Source of the DNA: a virus | Length of the DNA stretch: 34,775 bases | IMG/VR virus record: IMGVR_UViG_3300027970_000080 | Location: 1 to 34,775 of that record | Reading direction: 5' to 3' (one strand) | Shown: piece by piece, positions 3,316 to 34,775 of the stretch | Layout: the number at the start of each line of letters is the position of its first letter | Numbering within the stretch: the first letter of the stretch is position 1 | Program-made: the position numbers and the translations under genes | Notes under the pieces: generated by a model | Database searches by the model: none | Told to the model about the DNA's origin: nothing | What the model saw: only the letters and a program-made list of their open reading frames with translations

Positions 3316-3956
3316 ACATCCTCCTTTTAGGTCTCCGCGTCACCGACGAACCAATAGAAAGTGAAGGCAACTGCAATTTAAACGCAGAAGCTTTACCTTC
3401 AACCGAAAAGAAAATTCCGACAAAAGTAGTTTTAAGTCAGAAAGCAGATCACTATGTAGGAAAACTACTAAAGAAACTTAAAGATAAGGAAGTTTTCCTT
3501 GCTATCGGACCAACCAAAGCGGACCCGGATGGTTTGCTAAAGATGCAACCAATGCTAATTGCCAGAAAAGACAATTGGGATGATCTACTTGCTATCAATC
3601 TTTATATAGCCACGGGTGGCCTTGGTCCAAAAGCTGAAGAAAATCAACTTGGTGACAATACAGTTACCAACAGATCTTTGGCTTGGCAGGATGAAAACCA
3701 AGAAACAAACTGGATGAAGATATCTTGCTGGAATGAACTGTCAGCTCAACTAGCAGAACTTCCTGCAGGAACCCCAACTATTGCTGTTGGAAGGGTAAGC
3801 ACATCCGAAAAAGACGAAAGAGTATTCTTGAACTACGGCGTAGATAAGATTCTTTATCTGCCCCGCACACAAAAAGCAGCCCCTACAAAGGCTGCAGACC
3901 CTGAAAAGGGTCGAGTTTCTACTGCTGCTCTCGGTTCTCTCGATTTTTCGCTTTAA
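3312..3956 (+). CDS. ssb: single-stranded DNA-binding protein-like (OB fold)
   Basis: Residues about 93-183 follow the pattern of a bacterial SSB OB fold: a first strand ending in ATGGLGPKAEE, then NTVTNRSLAW, then a strand with TNWMKISCWNELSAQLAE and the TPTIAVGRVS strand. In the family these strands form the ssDNA-binding barrel that protects DNA during replication. The N-terminal 90 residues are extra and not recognised. The C-terminus ends in SLDFSL, not the classical DDDIPF tip. Its place between the polymerase and the nuclease fits the role. The match is by pattern only, so a different OB-fold protein remains possible. Confidence 0.6.
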   Translation: MNILLLGLRVTDEPIESEGNCNLNAEALPSTEKKIPTKVVLSQKADHYVGKLLKKLKDKEVFLAIGPTKADPDGLLKMQPMLIARKDNWDDLLAINLYIATGGLGPKAEENQLGDNTVTNRSLAWQDENQETNWMKISCWNELSAQLAELPAGTPTIAVGRVSTSEKDERVFLNYGVDKILYLPRTQKAAPTKAADPEKGRVSTAALGSLDFSL

Positions 3957-3962
3957 CTAACC

Positions 3963-4796
3963 ATGGTATTTATCGCAGGCAAATTCTCAGCTGATGAAAT
4001 CCTTTGTCAGATTCCCCCACACACACTACGAATTGATTTGCAGGCTCGTCGTTGGAAATCCGACAGTGATCCTGAAGCGGCCATCGTTGACACTAACGAC
4101 AATGGCATACCCATCGAGTTTATCTTGCTTGGCTTCACGCCATTCTTTGGTAACCTCGGCATGCGGGCGCACGAAGAATTTATACGAATTAGTTTTATCG
4201 GTGTTTCACCGAATCATCGTCTACTACCTCCACGGTGTGTCTGCACGAGCATCATCAGCGGTAAGTCAAGCCAAAAAAACTTTATCACGTACTTCCAGAC
4301 GTTGTATAACAATCGTATAAATGTAGGTGAAGTAGTAACGAGTACGAAGTTTGTGCAGAAATCTTTTAATGAACGCGATGCTTTTACAGGAGCTGATGGT
4401 CCAAAAATAAACTACAACGCATTAGAGTTTAAGGATCGGCCTTCACAGAATGACGAGGAGAAAAAGCTCATACAGGATGTATCTTCCTGGCTTGAGACTT
4501 CTGGAACAGAGCTGGTATCAGCTGCATTACGTTCTTCTATCCCCGGTTCTAATCTGGTTGAATTACCTCTGGGTGAAGACCACGGTGGTATTAAGGAAGC
4601 TTTTATGGAGGCTCACCCCAAAAGATTAGAGAGTTCTTTCGAAACGCCAAAGGCTTCTTTGCCTCCGGCTGCTGAAGCTCCAAAAAAAGCTGAGGCTGAA
4701 GTACCTCAAGCAACGCCAGCTCAAAAACCAGCTAAGGGACGAGAGCTGAATGAAGAACAGAAAGCTGCTCTAAAAGCGGCTGGTCTGGATTTTTGA
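3963..4796 (+). CDS. hypothetical protein with flexible Ala/Pro/Lys tail
   Basis: A 277-residue protein lying 6 bases after the SSB-like gene and probably in the same operon. The first ~200 residues look globular, with beta segments (PIEFILLGFTPFFGNLG, EEFIRISFIGVSP) and a LLPPRCVCTS strand. Residues about 225-260 are a low-complexity Pro/Ala/Lys/Glu linker, and the protein ends in a short probable helix finishing in AGLDF. A globular domain, a flexible linker and a short C-terminal tip is the layout of SSB-type hub proteins, so it may be a replication or recombination partner. No family is recognised. Confidence 0.6.
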   Translation: MVFIAGKFSADEILCQIPPHTLRIDLQARRWKSDSDPEAAIVDTNDNGIPIEFILLGFTPFFGNLGMRAHEEFIRISFIGVSPNHRLLPPRCVCTSIISGKSSQKNFITYFQTLYNNRINVGEVVTSTKFVQKSFNERDAFTGADGPKINYNALEFKDRPSQNDEEKKLIQDVSSWLETSGTELVSAALRSSIPGSNLVELPLGEDHGGIKEAFMEAHPKRLESSFETPKASLPPAAEAPKKAEAEVPQATPAQKPAKGRELNEEQKAALKAAGLDF

Positions 4797-14834: not shown

Positions 14835-17759
14835 TCAACGACCAAACAATAATTCAGACAAACCAAACTCGCCGCGGGGGGGGTTAAACCTCTCTCCAGC
14901 TAACTCTATGCGTCTTTGTAACTCATTACGGTTTTGTCTACGATTCATCTCGGCTTTACCTTGAGCAGATAATGGTTTTATTTCAGCTGTTAAGGGTGCC
15001 GCAGCCATGCGTGGTTTACCTGCAACGTTAGTTCTGGGTGCTGTTCCAATAAACTGACGCACTTTAGGCACTATACCTTCGCCCGTTTCTTGACGAACAA
15101 CTTCATTTGCAGCTCTGGCAGCAGCCGACCCAATAAATCCTAAGCCCACGCCGGGTGCCACTGGTGCTAATACAGGAGTGGATAGAGCCGCAGCAAACGC
15201 TGCTCCCGCAGGTAAACTTTCAATAAATTCACGACCCATCTGTCGACCCATCGCAGCAGGTCCCTGCTTATACCCTGTCTGAATTGCTTCTGGACTTGGA
15301 ATTAGATCCGCAGCTCCTGGTAGTAGAGAGGCTGGTGTTTTTTTAAGGGCACGTCCAAGTTCAAGCGCTCCCGCAGCAGCTCCAGTTACTGGATCAACTG
15401 CATAATAAGTCTTGTTACTCGGTAAACTACTTTGGTTGACTTCTGCTTGACCCCCACTAAAGCTCAATTGTCCTCGAATTGGTGTCTCAGCAGATTTCAG
15501 CTGTAGTGGAATTACTTTTCCTTCTTTATTTATATATGCATATTGGGCTTGCTCAATACCTTGCACTGGTCCAAAACCGCCACGCTGGTAAGCTACTCCT
15601 CTTTTATTTGCTGGTTCTCCAATAACTTCTTGTTGCTTACGAAATGTCGAACTGGCGCGTCCTTTTCTTTCGGCAGCCTCCTCTAGATCAAACTCCCGTA
15701 ATGGATTATTCACTACTAAAGTTCCGGGAGGCATTCCAGCCAACGCATTTTTAGAAACAAATTCTGTGAATGCTTTAGAAACAGCTGGTGGTAAATCTTT
15801 GGCATCGTAAGTAAATCTATCTTCGTCAGGAGAAAGCGTTTTAAAACTTATTGAGGACGTCCCTAAAATAGGATTTTTTGCGAGAAACTTTAAAGCGTTT
15901 TCTGAAATATCGCCGCCGGATAACTTAGTAGAGTCAGCTATTGAAGGCAGCATAGGCGGAGAATTAGTCATACTTAGTCCATATATTTCACCAATATCAT
16001 CTATTTTTGCTGGAGTGACTTCATCCGTATCTGGATTGTACCTCACATATAGTTCCGTAGGGTTATTTACACTTTGGGTATACTTATCGAAAAGCCTGGT
16101 CCTAGCTTGAGGCGATAAATCGTCAACGGCTTTTTTAAAAACGCGAGCGCGGTCGTCAATCCGACTCATTAATTCTCTTGCTTCTGGATCATCCCTCCCC
16201 ACATATTTACCTCCTCCAATCAAAGGTCTGACAGTGGATGCAGCTTGTGATGAAACATCGCTTAATTTTTCAGCAGCTTCAGGATTTAACTGACCTAAGC
16301 GTTCAATAGCTCTTCGCTGACGCTCCGTATTTCCGCTGGTGTAGTCAAACTCTATTCCGGCTAGTTCATACTGAGGTATCCCACCTTCTTTCATCAAACT
16401 GTTATAAATAGCAGCGCGATCTTTTGGATCTGATATTTGTTGAACTGAATCTATAAAATTTGAATATCTTAAAATTTCTTCTTTGCCTCCCACGGGGGCT
16501 TCTCCTTTAGGTGCTCTAGATAATAAAGGAATCATTTCAGGGTATTGTTTTAGCACTCCTGCAAATCGATTGATTGCTTCTTCATCGAAGCTCCGCATCA
16601 CATCTTCTCTTAACTCAGGTATAACCAACTGTCCTGTTCTGCGAGAACGTTCTTCTAAGGCGGCAAGTGTATTACGCATTTCTTGCGGAGAATACTCCAA
16701 TGATCTTCGCATTCGTTCGGCATCATCAGGTGTTCTCCATTGCCGCAGAAAGTTTAACCTAGTAGGTCCTTCATTAAAGTTTGGTTGATCAACATCCGGC
16801 GGTGTGGTAATACCTGTACCAAAAAGTGTTGACCGTTGATTTTCTCCAACTGCACCACTCCTGATCGCATTAATAATCTCATCACCACGAGGGGATTCTC
16901 TAATTGCTGGAAGTACTTGATTGTATTGTTGCTCAAGGCGCTTAGAATTAGCGTTGCGTACTATTGCATTTAGGTCCCTAGCCAAAGTAACTAATCTATT
17001 ATTATTCGCTACATAATCCTCAAACGAAGCTGGTGGGCGATTTATTATTCCCGCTGCCTCTGCCACCAAGTTCTCTCGGGGGTCGATTTCATCAACAAAA
17101 TTTAATCTTTGTTGTGTAATCCCCGGAGAAAAAGGTATATTTAAGGAAGCAGCCGAACTAGCTACATCACGACTCCTTCTTTGGAAGTCCCTTTGCTGCT
17201 GCTCAATGAAGTCGACTTCGTCTCTTAGCTCACGGCTTATTTGATTTACAGGTTCATATAAATTTGCAATCGAAGGGGCACTAGGTTGCCCGCGCCCGCT
17301 TCGGTTTACCTCGTCAAGGATTTGTCCTCTTTCCCCTTCTTCAAAATCCTCGTAAATATCTGAAATAGCGGCACCTCTTTCAAGAGCCGTTCTAATCGCA
17401 TTGCGTTCATCGGCAGAAGCACGGGAAAACCCTTCATATATACTTTGAGTAGTTTCAGGTGATACTATGCGGCTATTTAAAAAATCAAGAGCTTGCTGCT
17501 GTTGTGCTGCGGCAATGTTTGCGAGCTCAAATTCATTAAAATCTGGATCTATATCTTGACCTCGAAACGGAATACGGTCACGAAAATCCTCTATGTCAGC
17601 ATCTTGATCTAAATCGCCTGCATTAAGCGCTTCATTAAAAATATATCTTCTTGCTCTAGTCTGATCATATCTGTTTGAACTTTGCCTTTCCTCTTCAACT
17701 TTACCTTGAACCCTTTGCAAATCCTCAAAAGTTACAGGTCTTATAGGTAGGGGAGACAC
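14835..17759 (-). CDS. large probable virion protein, 974 aa
   Basis: The longest gene in the window apart from the tail module context. The start is GTG (MSPLPIRPVTFEDLQRV). The first ~650 residues are highly charged and predicted largely helical, rich in Glu/Arg/Gln. Near residues 850-890 lies an Ala/Gly/Pro-rich hydrophobic segment (LPAGAAFAAALSTPVLAPVAP then GVGLGFIGSAAARAA) that could insert in a membrane. The C-terminus is basic. A long helical protein with an internal membrane-active segment is typical of phage internal ejection (core) or tape-measure proteins, but no motif identifies it. It is the most likely candidate for such a role here. Confidence 0.65.
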   Translation of the reverse strand: MSPLPIRPVTFEDLQRVQGKVEEERQSSNRYDQTRARRYIFNEALNAGDLDQDADIEDFRDRIPFRGQDIDPDFNEFELANIAAAQQQQALDFLNSRIVSPETTQSIYEGFSRASADERNAIRTALERGAAISDIYEDFEEGERGQILDEVNRSGRGQPSAPSIANLYEPVNQISRELRDEVDFIEQQQRDFQRRSRDVASSAASLNIPFSPGITQQRLNFVDEIDPRENLVAEAAGIINRPPASFEDYVANNNRLVTLARDLNAIVRNANSKRLEQQYNQVLPAIRESPRGDEIINAIRSGAVGENQRSTLFGTGITTPPDVDQPNFNEGPTRLNFLRQWRTPDDAERMRRSLEYSPQEMRNTLAALEERSRRTGQLVIPELREDVMRSFDEEAINRFAGVLKQYPEMIPLLSRAPKGEAPVGGKEEILRYSNFIDSVQQISDPKDRAAIYNSLMKEGGIPQYELAGIEFDYTSGNTERQRRAIERLGQLNPEAAEKLSDVSSQAASTVRPLIGGGKYVGRDDPEARELMSRIDDRARVFKKAVDDLSPQARTRLFDKYTQSVNNPTELYVRYNPDTDEVTPAKIDDIGEIYGLSMTNSPPMLPSIADSTKLSGGDISENALKFLAKNPILGTSSISFKTLSPDEDRFTYDAKDLPPAVSKAFTEFVSKNALAGMPPGTLVVNNPLREFDLEEAAERKGRASSTFRKQQEVIGEPANKRGVAYQRGGFGPVQGIEQAQYAYINKEGKVIPLQLKSAETPIRGQLSFSGGQAEVNQSSLPSNKTYYAVDPVTGAAAGALELGRALKKTPASLLPGAADLIPSPEAIQTGYKQGPAAMGRQMGREFIESLPAGAAFAAALSTPVLAPVAPGVGLGFIGSAAARAANEVVRQETGEGIVPKVRQFIGTAPRTNVAGKPRMAAAPLTAEIKPLSAQGKAEMNRRQNRNELQRRIELAGERFNPPRGEFGLSELLFGR

Positions 17760-24006: not shown

Positions 24007-25518
24007 TTAAGAAAGGGCGATAATTAAACCAATTGCTTCTCCCTGAGAGATCCCAGGGTTAGCAAAATAAAGTGCTAAAGCTGCGTTACCAGAAGCCTGA
24101 GCAGCGGGAACAATAGTTAAAGCTGCATTACCAGACGCCAATGCAGTATTTGACACACTTATAGCTGCATTACCAGAACTTAAAGCAACACCAGCAACGA
24201 CAAGACCTGCGTTACCAGAAGCCAGAGCAACCGCAGCATTAACAAGACCTGCGTTACCAGAAGCTAAAGCCGTACCAGCAAGTGAAGTTCCAGCATTTCC
24301 AGAAGCTAAAGCAACAGCTGCAGCACTTAAAGCCGCATTACCAGACGCAAGACCTGTTAAAGCTAAAGAAATACCTGCATTACCAGACGCTAAAGCAGTG
24401 TTTACAGCTGCTAAGGCTGCATTACCAGACGCTAAAGCAGTTGAAGCAACAGATAAACCAGCATTACCGGAAGCTAAAGCATTAACAGAAACGGTTAAAG
24501 CTGCATTACCAGAAGCTAAGGCGGCCACAGATATATTTTGGGCCGAAATTCCTGAAGCTAGTGCAATGTTTGCTTGTTGGACAGCGTACTGTCCTGAAGT
24601 AACAGCAATATTTGAGAGTACAACAGCAGCGTTACCAGAGGCAATTGCAGTTACTGACTCTACGAGAGCTGCATTACCAGACGCCAAAGCACGATCTGCT
24701 AAAGAAAGTGCGGCATTACCAGATGCAAGTGCAGAAACAGATACAGTAACTGCAGCGTTACCAGACGCAAGTGCAACAACAGAGTCAGCTAAACCCGCAT
24801 TACCGGAAGCTAACGCCATAACTGAAGTTGTTAAAGCAGCGTTCCCTGAGGTACGTGCAACAACAGCAACGGATAGCGCAGCGTTACCAGAAGATAAAGC
24901 AGTGTTGCTAAGACTTAAAGCAGCATTACCAGATGCAAGTGCAGTAACAGCGTTAGTTAGACCCGCGTTGCCAGAAGCTAAAGCAGTTGAGGAGAGAACT
25001 AACGCTGCATTACCAGATGCAAGCGCAACAGCTGAATCTGTAACGGCAGCGTTACCAGAAGCAAAAGCAGTGTTTGCAACAGATAAGGCAGCATTACCAG
25101 AAGCTAAAGCTGTGTTGGCAACACTTAGGGCAGCATTACCAGAAGACAGTGCTGTAGAAGCTATGCTTAAACCAGCATTACCAGACGCCAGAGCAGTTAA
25201 CGATAAAGATATACCTGCGTTACCTGAAGCTAAAGCCGTATTTGCATCAGATAAACCAAGATTACCTGATGCAAGAGCATCTTGAGAACGTTTTAATGCA
25301 ACACCGTCAACACCGATATTGCCACCGGCAAAAACTAACCCGCTAGGTTGGGCAGTTAGTGCAACATCTAACCTTATAGTCTGTGTGGTGTCACCACCGC
25401 CGACTAAACCACTACCGGCAGTTAACGTACCACCTGATGCAAGCGCAATAACGCTGTCGCCTAGGGGTAGCTGAGCTAGGCTACCACTGACTAAAACAAC
25501 AGGTCTACGGATTGCCAT
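24007..25518 (-). CDS. tail fibre repeat protein B, 29 regular 14-aa repeats
   Basis: 503 residues. Residues 1-80 are an N-terminal domain with GSGLVGGGDTTQTIRLDVA, a pattern of phage fibre attachment regions. Residues 81-486 are 29 consecutive 14-residue units with consensus A-L-A-S-G-N-A-(A/G)-L-S-x-x-x-T, almost without a break; only units 11, 17 and 18 lack the usual core. The end is GEAIGLIIALS. The 7+7 spacing of the hydrophobic positions (L2, L9) would suit a coiled coil, although the invariant Gly is unusual for one, so another rod fold is possible. It should be a long fibre shaft in the virion. Confidence 0.78.
   Translation of the reverse strand: MAIRRPVVLVSGSLAQLPLGDSVIALASGGTLTAGSGLVGGGDTTQTIRLDVALTAQPSGLVFAGGNIGVDGVALKRSQDALASGNLGLSDANTALASGNAGISLSLTALASGNAGLSIASTALSSGNAALSVANTALASGNAALSVANTAFASGNAAVTDSAVALASGNAALVLSSTALASGNAGLTNAVTALASGNAALSLSNTALSSGNAALSVAVVARTSGNAALTTSVMALASGNAGLADSVVALASGNAAVTVSVSALASGNAALSLADRALASGNAALVESVTAIASGNAAVVLSNIAVTSGQYAVQQANIALASGISAQNISVAALASGNAALTVSVNALASGNAGLSVASTALASGNAALAAVNTALASGNAGISLALTGLASGNAALSAAAVALASGNAGTSLAGTALASGNAGLVNAAVALASGNAGLVVAGVALSSGNAAISVSNTALASGNAALTIVPAAQASGNAALALYFANPGISQGEAIGLIIALS
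24061..25278 (-). repeat. 29 tandem 42-bp repeats in fibre gene B
   Basis: Codons 81-486 of the fibre gene. Each 42-base unit carries codons for A-L-A-S-G-N-A-A/G, with the remaining six variable. Reading in phase shows 29 units with no length change, so expansion has been by whole in-frame units. The pattern of near-identical cores suggests unequal recombination or slippage. Confidence 0.85.
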
Positions 25519-32464: not shown

Positions 32465-33340
32465 CTAAATTACAGGTGTAGGAGTAGTAAAAGCTTGTTG
32501 TGCTTGAAGCATAAGTCTATTTAGTTTGTCTTGAGTTGCCGCTTGAGCACTTTCAGCAGACGCAATTGCTTGGTTTCGCGCTCGAAATGCAGCCTTAGCC
32601 TCCTCATCTTCTTTAGCCTCCATAAGATAAGCTAAAACTTTATCGGAGGAAGCATCACCGTCCTCCTCTTCTTTAAACTCAACAAGCGGCGGACTAGAAA
32701 GTGTTGACCTTTCTAAATCTTTATCACCCTCTCCTGCTTTTTTTAAAAGTCCAGTAATTACACTTGCGACAACTGGGTCATAGGCTCTATTTGTTGGTTG
32801 ACCTTGAGTGCCGCCAGGTTCACCGGTACCTTCAGGAGCTGCATACTGGACTGAAGGGTCGTAAGAGACTGAAGCACGATCGCCACGGTTCTGTACAAAA
32901 CGTTGAATATCTTTAAAGGATCTAACTGGCTGATTCCAATAACTTTTTCCTTGCAACGTAGGTAAGGATGCCCACTCAGGAGCAAGGCGAGCAATAGTTT
33001 GGGGTGAGATTGGATCGCGATCGGGATTAACTCCGCGCATGCGAATTAACTGCAACGCCGCTAAATCTTGAGATCGAGGCCCAAAATCTCTGGCTTTTAC
33101 CATAGGAGCTACCCGATCCCACGTCGTTGACAAAAATTGATACGCACCCGCAGCATCACTTGTATAGTCTCCACTAGTATATAAACGTCTGGGGTGGTCT
33201 ACGAAGTTATTAGTTATAGGTTTATACCCAAACGTAATGTTGTACCGAGGTCTACCTTGAGGACCGAGGGTACCCTCAGTAAAAGAAATAACGTCTAGAT
33301 AACGACGAGCATTCGGCGATATAAAATCCTTATTAGTCAT
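32465..33340 (-). CDS. GH104-type muramidase, probable virion-associated
   Basis: The ATG at 33340 is chosen (MTNKDFISPN); the longer frame to 33364 would overlap the previous gene further. Residues about 10-130 match the lambda-R-type lytic transglycosylase pattern: LDVISFTEG with E22 as the probable catalytic acid, YNITFGYKP, DHPRRLYTSG and AAGAYQFLSTTWDRVA. The C-terminal half (about 170-290) is a Pro/Gly linker followed by helical, acidic and Gln/Ala-rich segments, unlike a free endolysin, so a virion-bound wall-digesting protein that helps DNA entry is likely. Overlaps the upstream 83-aa gene by 8 bases. Confidence 0.8.
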   Translation of the reverse strand: MTNKDFISPNARRYLDVISFTEGTLGPQGRPRYNITFGYKPITNNFVDHPRRLYTSGDYTSDAAGAYQFLSTTWDRVAPMVKARDFGPRSQDLAALQLIRMRGVNPDRDPISPQTIARLAPEWASLPTLQGKSYWNQPVRSFKDIQRFVQNRGDRASVSYDPSVQYAAPEGTGEPGGTQGQPTNRAYDPVVASVITGLLKKAGEGDKDLERSTLSSPPLVEFKEEEDGDASSDKVLAYLMEAKEDEEAKAAFRARNQAIASAESAQAATQDKLNRLMLQAQQAFTTPTPVI

Positions 33341-33584
33341 TAGGTTCCTCTTGGAATATATCAATATTAGTATCTATAGCCACGTCGAGCTCTTCTAAAA
33401 CAGATTTATACGCACGTTCTCTACACACAAAATTATAAATAACTTTCCACATATACTGGTCCCTCGCTTTTCCTTCCAAACTGATCGCCCTGTTCTTGAG
33501 TCTGGTCAGAACAAAATCGTCTTCGATTGTTAGACCAACAACCAACTGACTTCCGTGGTTTTTCATTGTGTCCTCGAAGCTCAT
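33333..33584 (-). CDS. hypothetical protein, 83 aa
   Basis: Acidic, helical protein (MSFEDTMKNHGSQLVVGLTI..., VLTRLKNRAISLEGKARDQY, ...DTNIDIFQEEPND). No cysteine pair or membrane segment. It lies between the DUF6321-like gene and the muramidase and overlaps the latter by 8 bases. The sequence is of a kind seen in cyanophage structural modules, but no named family is assigned. Confidence 0.55.
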   Translation of the reverse strand: MSFEDTMKNHGSQLVVGLTIEDDFVLTRLKNRAISLEGKARDQYMWKVIYNFVCRERAYKSVLEELDVAIDTNIDIFQEEPND

Positions 33585-33985: not shown

Positions 33986-34249
33986 ATGGAGACTGCACGG
34001 CTCCTGACTATCGCTCAGACCGCAGAGCTGCTCAACTGCTCTGCTGGTTTTGTACGTAAACGTATCTCTCTCACCGAATCTAATCAGCCCGGTGGTTGGC
34101 CTAAGGGCATCTTCGTTAATCTTCAGCCAAACGGCGCGAAGTCTCTGTACCGTATTCATCAAGATTCTCTTCAAGAATATTTGAAAAGCGGAGCAGAAGT
34201 TGATAACGAAGAGGTTAATATAGAGGAAAGCGCCGCCTGCGCTCTTTGA
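33986..34249 (+). CDS. excisionase-like HTH DNA-binding protein, 87 aa
   Basis: The N-terminus METARLLTIAQTAELLNCSA with FVRKRISL is the helix-turn-helix pattern of MerR/excisionase-type proteins (LTiaqtAEllncS...VrkRi). A wing segment follows (GIFVNLQPNGAKSLYRIHQD), and then a helix with LQEYLKS. The acidic C-terminus ends ESAACAL. Such proteins act as excisionases or small transcriptional regulators. No integrase is visible, so a regulatory role is more likely here. The antisense frame at 33935-34174 is a shadow. Confidence 0.75.
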   Translation: METARLLTIAQTAELLNCSAGFVRKRISLTESNQPGGWPKGIFVNLQPNGAKSLYRIHQDSLQEYLKSGAEVDNEEVNIEESAACAL

Positions 34250-34258
34250 GCTTAAACC

Positions 34259-34339
34259 TAATGACCTCCTCGATCACGGATATACTTCAGGCTGCCGTCG
34301 AGGCACCTAAGAAAGAAATGATCACCCAGGAGGTCATTA
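34259..34339 (+). repeat. 12-bp inverted repeat spanning dps start codon
   Basis: TAATGACCTCCT (34259-34270) and AGGAGGTCATTA (34328-34339) are perfectly complementary over 12 bp, with a 57-nt loop. The left arm contains the ATG at 34261 and an anti-Shine-Dalgarno-like CCTCCT; the right arm contains the SD-like AGGAGG. In the mRNA the start codon could be hidden in the stem. A perfect 12-bp match over this distance is unlikely by chance. Confidence 0.6.
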
Positions 34340-34775
34340 TACAAAAAGATAACTGTGTAGACAATTTGATCTACAACATGGTTGCTTTAGCTTCTTACCT
34401 ATACCAGCTAAACACGCAAGCGCATCTACTTCATCTAAATATTGAATGTCCCCAGTTTCTAGCGTTGCACAAGTTTTTAAAAAAACAATACGAACAACAC
34501 ACCACGGACTTTGATACAGTCTCTGAACTGGTCAGAAGCATGGATTACTTAATGCCTATGTGCCAGAACGGACTACTAAACGCCTATAAAAAGTTTCCTA
34601 ACACCAAAACGTACGAAGCAAACGACAGCCTAGTAACTTATTTAAAAAATCTAGAGCAAGGCGGAATGTTAGGTAAATCCGTCGTTGAAATGGCTAAAGA
34701 AGTTGAAGCTCCAGATGTAGAAAACTTTGTAGCTGAAATTGTTAACAACATGTTCAAGAGCGCGTGGATGCTCAA
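34261..34775 (+). CDS. dps: Dps-type ferritin, 3' end outside the window
   Basis: 171 codons are visible and the frame is still open. The ferroxidase residues of Dps (His31, His43, Asp58, Glu62 in Listeria numbering) appear here as H58, H70, D85 and E89, with exactly the same spacing. The surrounding pattern agrees: TQAHLLHLN, FLALHKFLKKQY, then DTVSELVRSM. The usual Trp next to the first His is Leu59. Dps forms 12-mers that oxidise and store iron and protect DNA. The ~30-residue N-terminal tail is basic-acidic. Start ATG 34261 is 12 bases after the HTH gene. A phage-borne copy with an intact site is unusual. Confidence 0.75.
   Translation, partial: MTSSITDILQAAVEAPKKEMITQEVIIQKDNCVDNLIYNMVALASYLYQLNTQAHLLHLNIECPQFLALHKFLKKQYEQHTTDFDTVSELVRSMDYLMPMCQNGLLNAYKKFPNTKTYEANDSLVTYLKNLEQGGMLGKSVVEMAKEVEAPDVENFVAEIVNNMFKSAWML

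Follow-up and report, generated by a model that had tools for sequence, protein, structure and literature searches.

A Dps-like mini-ferritin with an altered iron site in a distinct family of S-EIV1-type phages

Known phage Dps proteins

The ferroxidase site of Listeria Dps lies at the subunit interface and takes its ligands from two subunits. Dps genes are also found in phages. In the excerpt available, DPS is described in Gratiaviridae and in 36 other gut phages, for which a role in the oxidative tolerance of infected cells has been proposed (PMC8008677; Benler, 2021); the hosts given there are strictly anaerobic, and these phages are likened to the family discussed here by description only. 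Excerpts of two further papers describe Dps in Lactobacillus plantarum phages (PMC6669764) and list a Dps-like gene for a Campylobacter phage (PMC2853527). The initial annotation of the gene studied here knew of no Dps as a standard cyanophage gene. This view is at odds with the records of S-EIV1 and S-SRM01, which annotate ferritin-like or Dps genes, and phage Dps in general are documented by these reports from Lactobacillus, Campylobacter and gut phages.

The window, i.e., the whole stretch of DNA analysed, is an entire virus record of 34,775 bases of class “linear”, a class that often denotes a fragment. Among phage records, the sole match of its Dps-like protein at E ≤ 0.01 is AHV82153 of S-EIV1 (45.5% identity over 84%). 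This protein, which bears the annotation “DNA-binding ferritin-like protein”, is a direct homologue with 40–45% identity over most of the length and the same ferroxidase ligands. The available part of PMC5332604 places S-EIV1 in a small cyanophage group and mentions no ferritin there, and a literature search for S-EIV1 together with ferritin found nothing. Cellular Dps queries retrieve 139 and 173 phage records at 1e-3 (overlapping lists), among them S-SRM01, a cyanophage isolate whose Dps (L289) is of another type than the window family. S-SRM01, the Grimontviridae Privateer and 7-11, Lactobacillus LpeD, Streptomyces Peebs and Bacteroides BS162P1 all have phage Dps with His-Trp at the first ferroxidase His, and in the tree described below all six branch outside the window family, their own positions being unsure given the long branches. 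We take PMC8557907 to be the description of S-SRM01; the words starvation, Dps and ferritin are absent from its main text.

Several other leads were discarded. The YerA41 paper, in the part available, reports a dps gene of the host; in the excerpt of the Lacusarx paper, DPS denotes a sequencing method; the excerpt of the Baikal paper, which came up in a search on ferritin in freshwater cyanophages, concerns Pithovirus; and a search combining cyanophage with “DNA starvation” led to work on sponges.

The gene and its assignment to the Dps-like ferritins

The dps gene occupies positions 34261..34775 of the plus strand, where a frame of 171 codons without a stop (34261–34773) runs off the record, so that the 3' end of the 178-codon gene is cut at the record end. 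Three other contigs (L002, L003, and L004) encode the identical 171 residues followed by KATLRNS and a stop, i.e., a protein of 178 aa. These copies supply the downstream sequence of the full gene, contain no frameshift or premature stop in the seven codons beyond the window, which the initial annotation had considered as a possibility, and rule out a broken gene or an artefact. An alternative in-frame TTG start at 34246 overlaps the stop of the preceding gene; L007 and L008 lack this TTG, which favours the ATG at 34261. In one relative, L053 (~3651–4167), a frame change breaks dps into parts of 139 and 59 aa, and the neighbouring cluster 2 gene is also in pieces; the split in dps is probably a matter of sequence quality.

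The window protein matches the Pfam family PF00210 (Ferritin) above the curated cut-off of 24.5 both as truncated (1.2e-7, 32.2 bits) and at full length (1.5e-9, 38.4 bits), and 57 of 59 family members match it at E ≤ 0.001. PHROG 3636, labelled “DNA binding protein”, is matched at 2.5e-18 by the truncated and at 3.6e-20 (74 bits) by the full-length protein; it also takes all 59 family members from which our family profile, A1, was built, S-EIV1, all six other phage Dps and the one plasmid Dps. Given that other Dps score higher than the window protein (93–169 vs. 74 bits), PHROG 3636 is a general phage-Dps group that extends beyond the window family and cannot serve as a name for this family alone. 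The NCBIfam Dps equivalogs NF006975 and NF052461 remain below their cut-offs with the truncated window protein (17.5 vs. 114 and 16.4 vs. 300 bits, respectively).

Among solved chains, the best match of the A1 profile is 3kwo, a “putative bacterioferritin” (3.5e-11), followed by the Pseudomonas PA0962 Dps (8ff9, 4.7e-8) and then by many Dps. The AlphaFold model of L002, the full-length version of the same protein, has a mean pLDDT of 78.3, with residues 11–29 poorly modelled, and helices at 33–60, 66–93, 97–103, 105–108, 120–148, and 151–176; the predicted fold is a four-helix ferritin bundle with a short helical BC stretch and without the fifth helix E. Among the 50 PDB matches listed by Foldseek, 49 are Dps or named relatives (MrgA, Dlp, HP-NAP, TpF1, and Listeria dodecameric ferritin), the remaining one being a putative bacterioferritin; the best match is PA0962 (E 1.7e-5, TM 0.82 by target length). 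In VIA-align, Dps, thioferritin and mini-bacterioferritin reach Z scores of ~20 and bacterioferritins ~19, and the fold alone thus does not single out Dps. Taken at full length, the profile matches and the resemblance of the model to Dps crystal structures bear out the initial assignment of the gene as a phage-borne Dps-like ferritin. The same model also matches by fold three BFVD proteins named prohead protease (A0A6J7WPK9, A0A6J7XDU5, and A0A6J7WIS1); these may be cases, in other phages, of a Dps domain fused to a capsid protein.

The iron site and the family signature

The initial annotation described the ferroxidase site as intact, naming four ligands at the Dps spacing and two flanking stretches. 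All four residues are present, namely H58 (34432..34434), H70 (34468..34470), D85 (34513..34515) and E89 (34525..34527), all on the plus strand and corresponding to H51, H63, D78, and E82 of E. coli Dps, and the stretches LALHKF and DTVSELVR are both found in the translation of 34261–34775. The 58-70-85-89 spacing is identical to that of E. coli H51-H63-D78-E82 and of Listeria H31-H43-D58-E62 in a gap-free alignment; the two reference sequences used for this mapping are presumed to be correct. We collected 89 distinct stop-to-stop ORFs of the family from 161 loci, which come from two overlapping scans and S-EIV1. H58, H70 and D85 are each conserved in 87 of these ORFs and E89 in all 89, with the four ligands present together in 87.

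The term “intact” nevertheless does not hold for the site as a whole. The fifth ferroxidase acid (E. coli D67, Listeria D47) has its gap-free counterpart in position 74 (34480..34482, plus strand). The window has a Lys there, and none of the 89 family ORFs has an acidic residue (K 75, G 8, Q 2, R 2, N 2), whereas 28 of the 34 cellular rows carry an acid at this position (E 27, M 6, D 1 overall). The Trp that directly follows the first His in 34/34 cellular rows is replaced as well, by Leu in the window and by L, F or I (83, 5 and 1, respectively) across the family. The cellular set comprises 32 cyanobacterial and two plasmid proteins; two weaker Dps matches from one genome were left out, of which L259 has the Trp and, by eye, an Asp at position 74, and L258 lacks the Trp. 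Judged from the sequence, K74 and the Leu for Trp would impair the second iron site or change its properties.

The second distinguishing feature of the family is the signature RSMDYLMPMC (residues 92–101; 34534..34563, plus strand), which replaces the x-L-G-x-x-A-P-type loop of cellular Dps. Within the pattern R92-x-x-D-Y-x-x-P-x-C101, R92, D95, P99 and C101 are invariant in 89/89 ORFs, and Y96 is found in 61/61. Outside it, E62 is present in all 89 ORFs and in only two of the 34 cellular rows, both plasmid-borne alphaproteobacterial proteins, whereas H80 (87/89) and C101 occur in none of the 34. Cyanobacterial Dps of the “THNFHWNV” type have in common with the window family the H-H-D-E ligands, Y77, R92, P99, and W169, but are only ~19% identical to it and differ by E, M or D instead of a predominant Lys at position 74, by Trp59 instead of Leu, and by an L-G-x-x-A-P loop in place of M-D-Y-L-M-P-M-C, with H80 being new in the phage family.

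The reading that we prefer, and to which we give an even chance, is that this Dps-like mini-ferritin, a member of a distinct S-EIV1-type family of aquatic phages, forms an iron-handling cage.

A branch that has lost most of the ferroxidase ligands

One branch of the family (L045–L047, which encode one protein, and L048) has N, S, S, K, N, and E at positions 55, 58, 70, 74, 85, and 89, and thus has lost H55, H58, H70 and D85, as well as K166 and W169; the copies from the second scan are the same. In the tree, these proteins nest within the lineage that includes the window (lineage A, see below), and they keep the signature, the helix-turn-helix (HTH) partner gene and the neighbours of that lineage. 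In the records G026 and G027, the L045-type gene is the sole ferritin match, below the Pfam cut-off. The two distinct genes of the branch differ by dS 0.235 and dN 0.016 (~22.5 synonymous and 6.5 non-synonymous changes), so that, on this single pair, the branch looks to be under purifying selection, although weakly documented, and the gene seems to be retained there for a role different from that of a usual ferroxidase. No account of this modified site, or of the branch lacking the ligands, was seen among the papers listed in the literature searches (the S-EIV1 genome paper excluded). As a phage gene, that of the window is real, complete and of a type already known; less ordinary are its altered iron site, its invariant signature and the existence of the ligand-less branch.

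These observations bring up an alternative in which the conserved job of the protein is not iron oxidation: the cage, or the surface formed by the signature (R92, M/L94, D95, Y96, P99, and C101), would bind another metal or a partner from either the phage or the host, the ferroxidase site being inherited and dispensable. The invariance of R92, D95, P99, C101 and E62 in 89/89 ORFs and the loss of three of the four iron ligands in one constrained branch fit such a role, and H80 and C101, absent from the cellular rows, together with the rare E62, are possible new ligands. However, H58, H70, D85 and E89 survive in 87/89 ORFs across diverged lineages and a single branch has lost ligands, and we regard this alternative as unlikely, albeit one to be taken seriously. 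Slightly less likely still, we consider a phage-domesticated ferritin cage with a rebuilt site (Lys, Leu) and a gained Cys signature, E62, and H80, the essential job of which would now be a phage one, in late infection or borne on the virion; the ferroxidase would be dispensable, as the ligand-less branch suggests.

Gene neighbourhood in the two lineages

The 82 loci examined fall into lineage A (53 loci, including the window) and lineage B (29 loci, including S-EIV1), with several near-identical contigs among them, so that the counts are not independent. In the window, dps is preceded on the same strand by a gene for an 87-aa, weakly HTH- or excisionase-like protein (33986..34249), which ends 11 bp before the dps ATG. 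The window protein matches phrog_6058 (0.00089) and the excisionase group phrog_2907 (0.0012), and its homologue in L013 matches HTH_17 at 0.00017, below the cut-off. The HTH-like gene lies upstream of dps on the same strand in 52 of the 53 lineage A loci, the exception being L030 with only 52 bp of upstream sequence; none of the 29 lineage B loci has an HTH match by dps. A scan for promoters and terminators around the HTH–dps pair (L004, 7500–8700) found one promoter-like element (2.0 in shuffled sequences) and two terminator-like elements (1.0 in shuffled sequences, sd 1.1), and a tRNA scan of the window found none.

The lineages also differ in the N-terminal tail, the net charge of which is −2 in the window, −8 to −2 in lineage A (negative in 37/37) and −1 to +3 in lineage B (positive in 21/24). 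Thus, the window lineage combines an acidic tail with an HTH partner, unlike S-EIV1, which has a net positive tail (+1, with four K/R), no HTH gene, other neighbours, and the signature variant RSMDYYLPTC.

The neighbouring genes give some ground for a virion component, in which the cage or a shell part would carry iron or protect the packaged DNA in a Ferrojan-horse style. In lineage B, dps follows a cluster 24 gene on the same strand at 24–45 bp in 16 of 29 loci (in two more, that gene lies two places upstream), and the cluster member tested, from L063, belongs to the virion structural proteins of phrog_1645. In lineage A, a convergent cluster 1 gene adjoins dps downstream in 51/53 loci, with the L004 member assigned to the minor tail protein group phrog_356 (1.2e-15), and a tail-fibre/lysozyme-like gene of the window (32465–33364) lies on the other strand upstream of the HTH–dps pair, two small genes further up. 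The fold matches to the three BFVD prohead proteases and the predicted ferritin gp217, detected by mass spectrometry in the proteome of phage Sajous1 according to the excerpt of PMC10892097, point in the same direction. The case is, however, built on genomic neighbourhood, the lineage A dps is on the strand opposite to these neighbours, and several other neighbours of dps had no informative match. Furthermore, the same excerpt describes Sajous1 infection as independent of TonB or FeoB, with iron-uptake mutants infected about as well as the wild type. Altogether, we consider a virion role distinctly improbable.

More doubtful yet is iron storage for phage or host iron enzymes during replication, rather than protection from damage. 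This possibility derives from the Grimontviridae phages Privateer and 7-11, in which Dps is encoded beside nucleotide-metabolism and thioredoxin genes, but these Dps fall outside the window family, and there is no iron enzyme among those neighbours of the window family, a minority of the neighbour clusters, that were run against PHROGs or Pfam.

Several other genes were noted in these genomes. In lineage B (L052–L082), the gene directly behind dps is often long and variable (e.g., 688 or 780 aa), and an overlap with the dps stop is common; seven such genes gave no Pfam match over the cut-off, and this position is a variable slot. In S-EIV1, it is occupied by AHV82152 (L082:15453–16919), labelled sulfate adenylyltransferase, for which neither Pfam nor PHROG gives a match at 0.01; the label looks doubtful. 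A sulfur-linked operon was accordingly rejected, the more so as a related gene is present in only one other fetched locus, L077. Elsewhere in the window, a 974-aa ORF on the minus strand (14835–17759) has no PHROG match at 0.01 and none in 50,697 phage records at 1e-3, and the ORF at 24007–25518 has no match in the phage records.

Distribution, evolution and host

In viral contigs, the single-protein scan found 152 relatives (80 kept) and the alignment scan 290 stretches (80 kept). The search of the genomes of 84,980 species with the family alignment and two short patterns gave 68 pattern hits, none of which was a relative, although strongly diverged cellular relatives could escape such a search. 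Of 292 cyanobacterial genomes, sampled evenly across the phylum, 97 contain a match to the family profile at E ≤ 0.001, and those read are ordinary Dps, with a best score of 51.4 bits; the 61 family proteins score 189–296 bits, 59 of them having been used to build that profile. The mean identity is 53% within the phage family compared with 19% between the family and the 34 cellular Dps. In a quick IQ-TREE analysis of 105 rows (61 family, 36 cellular, and 6 other phage proteins and 2 references), with an arbitrary root and several very long branches, the 61 family proteins form one clade on a branch of seven changes per site with an SH-aLRT of 100, separate from the cyanobacterial and other cellular rows; the donor cannot be named. 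Each of the 23 records searched has one ferritin match, and of 14 gene pairs, the 5 whose dS is not saturated have dN/dS values of 0.04–0.08. In these searches, the S-EIV1-type family of the window was found only in phages, and it has long been apart from the cellular Dps compared. That the gene is an ordinary Dps recently taken from a cyanobacterial host as an auxiliary metabolic gene, an idea suggested by the nearest cultured relative infecting Synechococcus, is therefore rejected as barely credible on the low identity to cellular Dps, the profile scores (at best 51 vs. at least 189 bits), the long-branched single clade and the genome scan.

The initial annotation assumed a phototrophic host for the window phage. 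The search for photosynthesis markers covered the records that contain 51 of the 82 loci (52 with S-EIV1), and neither psbA nor an Hli-type domain was found in the 30/30 lineage A records, including the window, although fragments cannot show absence. psbA occurs in one of 51 records, that of L061 from lineage B (G036 C1:64584–65456, Photo_RC type), where it points to a phage with a phototrophic host, and an Hli-type domain in one of 52, S-EIV1, in a match with internal stops. The window primase has its best phage match in S-EIV1 (29.8% over half its length), which is also matched by 15 window ORFs (≥60 aa) at 1e-3 but is only a distant relative. These results do not bear out the assumption for the window phage itself, for which a cyanobacterial host is plausible.

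Proposed function and implications

The iron-handling cage agrees with the PF00210 match, the Dps fold match, the retention of the ligands in 87/89 ORFs, the HTH–dps pair in 52/53 loci and the low dN/dS; the never acidic position 74, the lost Trp, the ligand loss in L045–L048, the low equivalog scores and the bacterioferritin Z scores of ~19 count against it. We propose that twelve subunits, of which the monomer was modelled, would assemble into a cage. By analogy with Listeria Dps, Fe(II) would be bound at the two-subunit interfaces, by H58 and H70 from one subunit and D85 and E89 from the other, and would be oxidised and stored. The enzyme would probably be slower than the host Dps or differently tuned, if K74 and the Leu affect the second iron site as supposed above. 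Its most likely use would be as a scavenger of free iron and peroxide inside the infected cell, such that phage DNA and iron enzymes might be spared Fenton damage. The initial annotation suggested protection of replicating phage DNA from oxidative damage; direct coating of DNA has little to recommend it given the N-terminal tail with a net charge of −2, which is not Lys-rich as in the E. coli type, and the protection would rather operate without DNA coating.

The handling of iron by aquatic phages is mostly a matter of hypothesis, and the S-EIV1-type family offers a testable protein. The family is common (the 290 stretches in viral contigs), has a cultured relative in S-EIV1 and presents a natural series of altered iron sites. 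Within this series, the ligand-less branch is a natural case of loss of the site that could separate iron oxidation from another function of the Dps cage.
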